Source of the DNA: Candidatus Latescibacterota bacterium
GTDB taxonomy: Bacteria > Latescibacterota > UBA2968
Assembly (NCBI GenBank): GCA_022821275.1
Contig: JAJEDY010000094.1
Location: 1-64,000, forward strand
Length of the DNA: 64,000 nucleotides
Reading direction: 5' to 3'
Position 1 is the stretch's first letter; each line of letters starts with the position of its first letter. The translations under genes were made by a program, and so were the position numbers. Positions 35,193-38,543 of the stretch are shown one piece after another. The notes under the pieces were generated by a model, which saw only the letters and a list, made by a program, of their open reading frames with translations, was not told where the DNA came from and searched no databases.

Positions 35193-35270
35193 TTTTTACT
35201 CCTGTGTTGTTCTTTGATATTTTATGTGATAAACTAATATACAAAACTGTTTTCATAAGGCAAAGGCGAA

Positions 35271-35387
35271 ATGACAAATGATTTGTTCAATGCCTGGGCT
35301 TACGCAATAATACCTGGACTGGACTTCAACCGCAAAGCGATTGCACTCAACGATCTCTTTATTGCCACAATCGTCTTCTCATTGTAA
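35271..35387 (+). CDS. Candidate small ORF, 38 aa, upstream of the XRE-cyclase gene
   Basis: MTNDLFNAWAYAIIPGLDFNRKAIALNDLFIATIVFSL preceded by a purine-rich stretch (aaggcaaaggcga). No homology known to me. Confidence 0.25.
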   Translation: MTNDLFNAWAYAIIPGLDFNRKAIALNDLFIATIVFSL

Positions 35388-35411
35388 TTTTTACAAAATA
35401 AAGAATCCTAT

Positions 35412-36137
35412 ATGATGCTCATCGAACTCGGTCAACGTCTTCGCGCTCAGCGGGAACGCCTTGGCCTCAAGCAAAACGACATTGCCAATGCCCTGCAGGT
35501 AAGCCCACAGGCCGTTTCCAAGTGGGAAAGGGGTGAAAACGGTCCCGATATTGCTACCCTGGGACCGCTTGCCAGATTGCTCGGCGTTTCTACGGACTGG
35601 CTTTTGGATGCACATGGCGAAAATCAAGATGTTTTTGATGCTACTATCTTTACCTCTACAGTCGTCGGTGCATACCAAAAATCATTACAAATGGAGGCGC
35701 GGGAGTTTGCAGCATGGGCAAATGGCATTTTGTTTCAACTGACCGAAGCTGTTTTGCGTCACGATGGCGTTCCGCTCAGATATATGGGAGACGCATTTTT
35801 GTGTTTTTTTTCTGGCGTACACCATCAGCATCGCGCTGCCCAGGCAGCGGCATTTTCCCAGCGACTTATCAGCGAAGATCTGGTCATTGGTTTGAGCAGC
35901 GGTGAGATTTATTTAGGCGCAATGGGGCATCCCGATTACGCTCATCCCGATGTGACGGGAGAAGTGGTCAACATCGCATTTATCGTTCGAGAATGGGCAG
36001 AAACAAATGTCCGCAAAGGAATTGCAGCAACGACATCTGTGTCGAACAAGCTCGATGAAGTTTTTGATATTTCCCACCCCACAGAAATCACTTTTCGCGG
36101 CATTGAGACGCCCATCTCAATTTGTGAGATTAGATAG
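35412..36137 (+). CDS. XRE HTH domain fused to a class III nucleotidyl cyclase-like domain
   Basis: LGQRLRAQRERLGLKQNDIANALQVSPQAVSKWERGENGPD then ...LRYMGDAFLCFFSG...VIGLSSGEIYLGAMGHPDYAHPDVTGEVVNIAFIVREWAE... resembling GDallavF / GiHtGevvvG.vG / yt.iGdaVN.AaRl. Confidence 0.75.
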   Translation: MMLIELGQRLRAQRERLGLKQNDIANALQVSPQAVSKWERGENGPDIATLGPLARLLGVSTDWLLDAHGENQDVFDATIFTSTVVGAYQKSLQMEAREFAAWANGILFQLTEAVLRHDGVPLRYMGDAFLCFFSGVHHQHRAAQAAAFSQRLISEDLVIGLSSGEIYLGAMGHPDYAHPDVTGEVVNIAFIVREWAETNVRKGIAATTSVSNKLDEVFDISHPTEITFRGIETPISICEIR

Positions 36138-36188: not shown

Positions 36189-37640
36189 ATGGCCGATATA
36201 GTGTTGCCCGATAGCGCGACTGATATTCAAATTCCCGATTATTCGCATCTGCCCTATAAAGTCGCCGATATGTCTCAGGCAGATTTTGGACGAAAAGAGA
36301 TCACAATTGCCGAGCAAGAGATGCCCGGTTTGATGGCTGTGCGCGAAAAATACGCGGATGAGAAACCTCTGAAAGGTGCCCGCATAATGGGATCTTTGCA
36401 TATGACGATTCAGACGGCTGTGTTGATCGAGTCGCTCAAAGTGCTGGGGGCCGATGTGCGCTGGGCATCGTGTAATATTTTTTCAACACAGGACCACGCC
36501 GCTGCCGCAATTGCAGAAACGGGTACGCCGGTTTATGCGTGGAAGGGCGAGTCGCTGGAAGAATACTGGGAATGTACTTTACAGGCACTCAATTTTGTGG
36601 CGGGCGGACCGACACTGATTGTCGATGATGGCGGGGATGCGACGTTGCTGGTTCACCGGGGGTACCAGGCAGAAGACGATCCTTCGATTCTCGATGAGCC
36701 TACTGATAATCGCGAGTTGGAGATTGTCAATGCCGTGCTCAAGCGGCAACTCGATCGCAATCCGCGTTTTTGGCACAATATGGCCGCCGATATTCAGGGC
36801 GTGTCCGAGGAGACCACAACAGGTGTCCATCGCCTGTATCAGATGCGGGATGAAGGAACACTTCTCTTTCCCGCGATTAATGTGAATGATTCGGTGACCA
36901 AATCGAAATTCGTTAATCTCTATGGTTGCCGCGAGTCGCTCGCCGATGGCATCAAGCGCGCGACAGATGTTATGGTCGCCGGAAAGGTCGTTTGTGTGTG
37001 TGGTTATGGCGATGTGGGCAAGGGGTGTGCCCAATCTATGCGCGGATTTGGCGCGCGCGTGTTGGTGACGGAAGTCGATCCGATATGTGCATTACAGGCG
37101 GCAATGGAGGGTTTTGAAGTGACGACTGTGGAAGAAGCCCTTTCCGAAGCCAATATTTTTGTGACGACGACGGGCAATACGGATATCATCCGCATCGAGC
37201 ACCTGGAAAATATGCTCGACCAATCCATTGTGTGCAATATCGGGCATTTTGACAATGAAATTCAGGTCGATAAGCTGGGCGATTATCCGGGTATTATGCA
37301 CGAAAATATCAAGCCGCAGGTCGATAAATACACGTTTCCAGGTGGACATGCCATCTATTTGCTCGCGGAAGGCCGCCTGGTCAATCTCGGCTGCGCAACC
37401 GGGCATCCTTCTTTTGTGATGTCCAATTCGTTTACCAATCAGGTGTTGGCGCAGATGGATTTATGGGCACAGCAGCGAGATGTCGGCGTTTATACGTTGC
37501 CCAAACACCTCGATGAAGAGGTTGCGCGACTTCACCTCGAAAAACTCGGTGTAAAGTTGACCGAACTCACACAGAAGCAGGCCGATTATATTGGCGTGTC
37601 CGTCGAAGGTCCGTACAAACCCGATCATTATCGGTATTGA
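36189..37640 (+). CDS. ahcY: Adenosylhomocysteinase
   Basis: [70 protein letters not shown]-terminal PYKPDHYRY. Confidence 0.97.
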
Positions 37641-37664: not shown

Positions 37665-38543
37665 ATGCGATTTTTAGACTATTTTAATGGCGATCAGCCG
37701 GTCATTTCTTTTGAGATTTATCCGCCGCAGACGCAGGGGGGGATGCGCGCGCTCAAAGCGCGGGTTGTTCCCAATTTGCTCAAGCTGAATCCCAGTTATA
37801 TGACGGTTACGTATGGCGCAGGTGGCTCGACGCGCGCGAAAACGCTGGAGATTGCCTCGCTTATTCAGAATGAATTTGGGCTGACTGCGGCGTGTCATCT
37901 CACATGTGTGGGGTCATCTCGAACGGATATCGATGATATTTTGCAGGCGATTCGCGCAGAGGGTATCCGCAATATTGTCGCGCTTCGCGGCGATCCTCCT
38001 CGCGGAGAAGATACTTTTGTGCCCGCGAAGGATGGATTTGCTTACGGCAATGAACTCGTGGCGCATATTCGCAGCACTGAACCGAAAGGCGATGGGTTTG
38101 GGTTGGCTGTTGCGGGATATCCCGAGAAACACCTCGAAGCGCCCGATTTTGATACGGATATTGCAAATCTCAAGCGCAAGGTCGATTCCGGTGGGGATAT
38201 TGTTATTACACAGCTTTTTTACAATAACGATTACTTTTTTCGTTTTGTCGATCGCGTGCGTGCAGCCCATATCACAGCACCTGTTGTTCCGGGGTTGATG
38301 CCGATTCTCGCGGCAGGGCAGATACAGCGCATTGCGTCTTTGTGCGGCTCTGAGATCCCGGAGGATTTGCAGGATCATCTCAAGGGTGCTGTGGATGATG
38401 AAGACAAGGCGATGAATATCGGTATTGATCAGTGCATCGAGCAGGCGACCGAATTGCTCGAACAGGGCGTGCCGGGTATTCACTTTTACGTGCTGAACAA
38501 ATCCACTCACATGCGCCAGATTATCAAAGCGCTTCCGCTCTAA
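37665..38543 (+). CDS. metF: Methylenetetrahydrofolate reductase
   Basis: ISFEIYPPQTQGG; NIVALRGDPPRGE; FNNDYFFRFVDRVRAAHITAPVVPGLMPI region. Confidence 0.93.
   Translation: MRFLDYFNGDQPVISFEIYPPQTQGGMRALKARVVPNLLKLNPSYMTVTYGAGGSTRAKTLEIASLIQNEFGLTAACHLTCVGSSRTDIDDILQAIRAEGIRNIVALRGDPPRGEDTFVPAKDGFAYGNELVAHIRSTEPKGDGFGLAVAGYPEKHLEAPDFDTDIANLKRKVDSGGDIVITQLFYNNDYFFRFVDRVRAAHITAPVVPGLMPILAAGQIQRIASLCGSEIPEDLQDHLKGAVDDEDKAMNIGIDQCIEQATELLEQGVPGIHFYVLNKSTHMRQIIKALPL

Follow-up and report, generated by a model that had tools for sequence, protein, structure and literature searches.

The locus described here raises the question of what the fold of an enzyme does when it is attached to a DNA-binding head. 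What is known of class III cyclases is their work as enzymes. In the window, the whole 64,000-nucleotide stretch of a Candidatus Latescibacterota contig that was analysed, a domain resembling them follows an XRE-type helix–turn–helix (HTH) in a protein encoded just ahead of a gene of the methyl cycle. The genes concerned are:

35412–36137, + strand: regulator gene, XRE HTH and degenerate class III cyclase domain (assigned from the ORF, Pfam, profiles and a structural model)
36189–37640, + strand: ahcY, S-adenosylhomocysteine (SAH) hydrolase, 51 bp downstream of the regulator gene (NCBIfam TIGR00936, 621 bits, cut-off 498)
37665–38543, + strand: metF, methylenetetrahydrofolate reductase, 24 bp past ahcY (NCBIfam TIGR00676, 318 bits, cut-off 294)

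The regulator ORF encodes 241 aa; the reverse complement of the same interval contains several stops in frame 1. An N-terminal XRE HTH joined to a class III cyclase-like domain had been proposed in an earlier note on this DNA, and both parts of the proposal are borne out. The HTH_3 domain occupies residues 10–64 (E-value 6.1e-16, 58.6 bits against a cut-off of 23); being a Cro/C1-type HTH above the Pfam cut-off, it belongs to the XRE type. Its relatives in the PDB are the P22 C2 and 434 repressors. The Pfam scan of the protein returned XRE-type HTH families only, with neither an ArsR-type nor a LuxR/GerE HTH.

The degenerate cyclase domain comprises approximately residues 73–241. Taken singly, the protein matches Pfam Guanylate_cyc with an E-value of 0.006 and 16.7 bits, which is under the cut-off of 21.9; a relative encoded on an IMG/VR contig (L086) scores 21.9, barely at the cut-off. 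A family profile built from the C-terminal parts of seven relatives matches solved class III cyclases, including Cya2 (2w01, E-value 7e-14), CyaB (3r5g, 1e-11) and CyaC (1wc0, 3e-9), and hhalign against canonical cyclases of the same phylum gives 99.7%. The AlphaFold model has a mean pLDDT of 90.1 with an alignment of 21 sequences to which IMG/VR cyclases had been added, versus only 51 with close homologues alone. It resembles CyaB (3r5g; VIA-align Z 24.3, RMSD 1.5 Å over 168 residues) and Cya2 (Foldseek E-value 4.5e-13), a likeness that supports the assignment and is not an independent test of the fold, since true cyclases were needed in the alignment. The sequence profiles are independent of the model. 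Judged by homology to solved cyclases, the C-terminal region is a class III cyclase-type domain.

The regulator family is conserved over at least five bacterial phyla. Seven further genomes from the genus contain orthologues with 95–98% identity, and other families of Latescibacterota contain ones with 48–74%. When 386 genomes were searched with a profile, full-length members turned up in four further phyla (G340, G267, G320 and G206); denser sampling of these phyla located the regulator in 12 of 68, 8 of 24, 3 of 7 and 1 of 3 genomes. One more member, with 45% identity, is carried by the IMG/VR contig. The occurrence is uneven: roughly one genome in four of the phylum possesses the gene, and G034, G037 and G038, which belong to the same genus as the window, lack it. 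Among the matches listed, the pairing of HTH and cyclase is confined to this family, the others containing HTH alone or cyclase alone; plasmid and phage searches also gave HTH-only or cyclase-only matches, save for the one IMG/VR contig. Some paralogous XRE proteins (L027, L029, L035, L036 and L037), about 265 aa long, have a very similar recognition helix (S.QAVSKWE) and a different C-terminal domain.

The gene neighbourhood points to the methyl cycle. The order of regulator and ahcY, whose conservation the earlier note had missed, is found throughout the genus where the regulator is present, in G025 and G026, and also in G019 from another family; the placement of metF after ahcY is kept within the genus. 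Of the 24 loci in the other phyla, 23 have ahcY as the next gene and one has metE; the IMG/VR member also adjoins metE. Thus, ahcY or, in two cases, metE follows in every lineage seen outside family f4 of Latescibacterota. No methionine-cycle gene lies beside any of 22 unrelated XRE loci. In f4, the neighbour is thrC with a 10-bp overlap (G042 and G048) or a Trm112-like ORF (G062), which means that some members have a target outside the methyl cycle proper. The overlap of the regulator and threonine synthase genes in two f4 loci (L049, 8617–10763, and L050) hints at control of the homoserine branch.

The genomes without the regulator provide some further observations. In G034 and G037, the MORN-repeat gene and ahcY are present and the regulator is missing between them; G038 is also without it. 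The corresponding loci (L057, L062 and L066) share another sequence ahead of ahcY, GATTGAC...CCCGATAGTTGGTAACTTCA, which is perhaps an alternative ahcY promoter. The regulator gene has apparently been swapped in or out at the ahcY position within the genus. Some other lineages lacking the regulator have metK ahead of ahcY (L069, L070 and L071). In L086 (1389–8090), ribonucleotide reductase genes lie directly upstream of the metE-linked regulator; this contig may come from a virus with a methionine operon or be bacterial DNA wrongly classed as viral.

The earlier note had suggested mapping the DNA site of the regulator near 35.2–35.4 kb and did not recognise an operator; a predicted tandem operator (35326–35361) does lie within this interval. 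The predicted elements of the region are:

35326–35340, + strand: predicted operator unit 1 (TCAACCGCAAAGCGA), a 15-bp imperfect dyad, from the tandem motif across the family
35347–35361, + strand: predicted operator unit 2 (TCAACGATCTCTTTA), from the same tandem motif, 21 bp past unit 1 and abutting the −35 hexamer
35362–35367, + strand: −35 hexamer TTGCCA, with conserved TTG
35368–35384, + strand: possible third operator-like copy (CAATCGTCTTCTCATTG) in the promoter spacer, by pattern only
35385–35390, + strand: −10 hexamer TAATTT, 17 bp from the −35 hexamer, from the spacing pattern over members

The common site was found by a motif search in the upstream regions of 26 non-redundant members. 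Its predicted consensus is TCAAC-N5-CG(T/C)(C/T)A, repeated once at a spacing of 21 bp, with TTG after the second copy. Of the 26 members, 22 have this tandem pattern, versus a mean of 0.003 in dinucleotide shuffles; shared ancestry makes the comparison look more significant than it is within a phylum, and recurrence across phyla is the stronger point. TANNNT is located 16–18 bp past TTG in 19 of the 22 members (14 at exactly 17 bp; shuffle mean 1.6, maximum 5), so TTG behaves as a −35 element. The operator core is absent from all seven ahcY upstream regions that lack the regulator gene, including those of G034, G037 and G038. The recognition helix of the regulator, QAVSKWE, is near-invariant across phyla, which fits one shared DNA site. 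The two metE-linked members do not have the standard tandem operator; other dyads, TCAAY-N5-GTTGA, are present there.

A search of the window genome with the tandem pattern gave six matches versus three in the control. Only the pair at the regulator locus (35327–35364) lies outside ORFs and a short way ahead of a gene read in the same direction; the remaining matches are inside ORFs or unplaced, and a genome-wide regulon was rejected. The small number and the positions of the matches favour local control, and the protein is very probably a local regulator of its own operon.

Several other candidates in this region were also rejected. A 38-aa ORF (35272–35388), considered as a leader peptide, spans the operators, and its surroundings are broken by indels in relatives. 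A riboswitch ahead of ahcY was discarded, with no Rfam match at the gathering score in the ahcY regions searched; the comparison of the window with Rfam at E-values up to 5 gave chance matches only, located elsewhere. A block near 35235, CTAATATACAAAAC...CATAAGGC, was rejected as an operator, being kept also in genomes of the same genus that lack the gene. The block at 35235–35285 (CTAATATACAAAACTG..TTCATAAGGCAAAG), between the MORN-repeat gene and ahcY, is conserved across the genus with or without the regulator gene.

The position of the operator bears on the direction of control. Transcription is inferred to start at about 35397, which would place the centres of the two units near −43 and −64, and the operator is found just upstream of the −35 hexamer of the regulated promoter, as with lambda CI. 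For lambda CI, also an XRE protein, operators in a similar position serve to activate PRM. By this analogy, activation appears likelier than repression, and the regulator is rather more probably an activator than not. The alternative, that the protein represses its own ahcY operon until a ligand lifts the block, is less probable, though plausible: XRE proteins often repress, the operators adjoin the −35 hexamer and, in the window, the third copy overlaps the spacer. This third copy is also present in G029 and was not seen at the same place in other phyla; the pair that is conserved lies upstream of the −35 hexamer, where only TTG is conserved, and both features argue against repression, the latter being the usual appearance of an activated promoter.

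The nature of the ligand can be approached through the former active site. A canonical class III site contains two metal-binding Asp residues, a ribose-binding Asn and a transition-state Arg; a Lys/Asp pair is the determinant of adenine specificity in adenylyl cyclases, and the sites are assembled from two subunits (PMC2576301). The motifs that the earlier note read as cyclase landmarks do correspond to such positions: GDAFLCFF carries the second metal Asp (Asp2, D127) and DVTGEVVNIAF carries the adenine-type Asp (D180) and the ribose Asn (N187). The replacement of the first metal Asp (Asp1), suggested in the same note, is confirmed as Thr83 in FTSTVV and extends to the family. The adenine-type Lys position, ahead of the GD motif, is occupied by Arg123, the partner of D180, and the transition-state Arg position, four residues past the Asn, by Ile191, a loss that had escaped the note.

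Residues were counted over 32 family members, 31 of them full-length. Asp1 is retained in one of the 31 members having that position and the transition-state Arg in 4 of 32, with Asp2 present in all 32. The adenine-type Lys is found in 29 of 32 members, with Arg instead in the window genus; Asp180 and Asn187 are each kept in 31 of 32. The His and Tyr of the family signature GHP(D/E)Y occur in every one of the 32. The complete catalytic set (Asp1, Asp2, Asn and Arg together) is found in none of the 31 full-length members. The family pattern, read from these alignments, is one of eroded catalysis with a conserved base- and ribose-side pocket, and cyclase activity is very probably lacking. The invariance of Asp2 despite the apparent loss of metal catalysis makes metal or phosphate binding by this residue possible.

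The pocket residues suggest what may be bound instead of a substrate. The retention of residues contacting adenine and ribose makes an adenosyl metabolite a probable kind of ligand, and the ahcY, metE and metF context makes SAH, SAM or adenosine a better candidate than a cyclic or triphosphate nucleotide; taken overall, an adenosyl-type ligand for the pseudo-cyclase has roughly an even chance. SAH is an inhibitor of methyltransferases and is removed by AhcY. Two points favour it: it is the substrate of AhcY and the source of the homocysteine used by MetE, and the pattern of retained and missing residues suits adenine plus ribose with no triphosphate. Other possible ligands are SAM, adenosine and an ordinary adenine nucleotide. 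Of the earlier suggestion that the protein may sense rather than make a nucleotide, the absence of synthesis is well supported, and a nucleotide as ligand is less likely.

A sensor of energy state responding to ATP, ADP, AMP or cAMP, with ahcY as one output, is unlikely. It would agree with a fold built around a nucleoside-triphosphate site, with the adenine-type Lys/Asp and ribose Asn kept and with the invariant Asp2, but Asp1 and Arg are gone in nearly all members and the partner genes are ahcY and metE. In addition, no canonical class III cyclase was seen in the window genome: PF00211, the class III cyclase family, has no match at an E-value of 0.01 in its 5.66 Mb (G000), the degenerate domain itself being below threshold.

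XRE proteins usually act as dimers. The pseudo-cyclase might, then, be a dimerisation module only, binding no ligand and leaving expression to be set by autoregulation, a reading that the two-subunit construction of class III cyclase sites also suits (PMC2576301); the near-invariance across phyla of the Lys, Asp and Asn of the pocket and of GHP(D/E)Y, in a domain that has otherwise diverged, speaks against this reading, which is unlikely. An active cyclase of unusual chemistry joined to the HTH is very improbable: the fold, Asp2, Lys, Asp and Asn are kept and the G062 protein retains Asp1 and Arg, but the full set occurs in no member, G062 having lost Asn and the adenine Asp and all others being without Asp1.

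The preferred reading is that of a one-component regulator of the SAH/methionine cycle, acting locally as a dimer with an adenosyl-binding pseudo-cyclase and likely as an activator; as a whole, this reading is quite probable. Domain make-up, the loss of the catalytic set throughout the family, the linkage of genes, the operator and promoter layout, and the absence of the operator without the gene were computed directly. In the proposed mechanism, two pseudo-cyclase domains would pair in the manner of cyclases and hold two XRE heads in a homodimer. Two such dimers would occupy the tandem operator directly ahead of the −35 hexamer of the regulator's own promoter and would control the regulator–ahcY(–metF) operon. 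The former active site, performing no chemistry and keeping its adenine and ribose contacts, would bind an adenosyl metabolite, most likely SAH, then SAM or adenosine. Ligand binding would alter the geometry of the dimer and set DNA binding or contact with RNA polymerase, and ahcY might be activated, for example, on SAH build-up. More tentatively, a cyclase fold may have been turned into a SAH/SAM (adenosyl) receptor within a widespread family of methyl-cycle activators, its base- and ribose-binding half kept and its catalytic half lost.

If this is true, the cyclase fold would have become, in several phyla, the sensing part of a transcription factor that travels with ahcY. The family would constitute a new type of methyl-cycle regulator from phyla that have received little study, with a DNA site predicted to the base, and would offer a defined example of an enzyme fold turned receptor. 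The operator motif can be used by others for annotating the regulator family.

No description of an XRE–cyclase regulator was found in the open-access papers searched and, as far as found, the sensor domain has not been described in a one-component regulator. The known methionine-cycle regulators include MetJ, MetR, SahR/SamR, McbR and several riboswitches, none of them described there as an XRE–cyclase protein (PMC4239095). MetJ, MetR, McbR and the SAM/SAH riboswitches also control methionine and SAM-cycle genes, but are proteins or RNAs unrelated to the window regulator. SahR of delta-proteobacteria is a SAH-responsive regulator of SAM-cycle genes (PMC4239095); it is likewise a transcription factor devoted to these genes and has SAH as its ligand, but belongs to the ArsR family, whereas the window regulator combines an XRE HTH with a cyclase-fold domain.

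The CHD+LuxR proteins of Mycobacterium, restricted to this genus within Actinobacteria, contain a class III cyclase homology domain and an HTH (PMC3466318). The fusion of such a domain to a DNA-binding HTH is common to both groups; the HTH of the mycobacterial proteins is of the LuxR type, whereas the family described here has an N-terminal XRE head, a degenerate cyclase and a linkage to the methyl cycle. Cya2 (2w01), CyaC (1wc1) and CyaB (3r5g) share the fold and several pocket residues with the C-terminal domain of the regulator, which differs from them in the loss of Asp1 and the transition-state Arg and in a shorter helix 3–strand 4 segment. Lambda CI and P22 C2 resemble the regulator in the XRE HTH and in tandem operators upstream of the −35 hexamer of their own promoter; the window regulator has a cyclase fold in place of the C-terminal domain of phage repressors, and its target is a metabolic operon.
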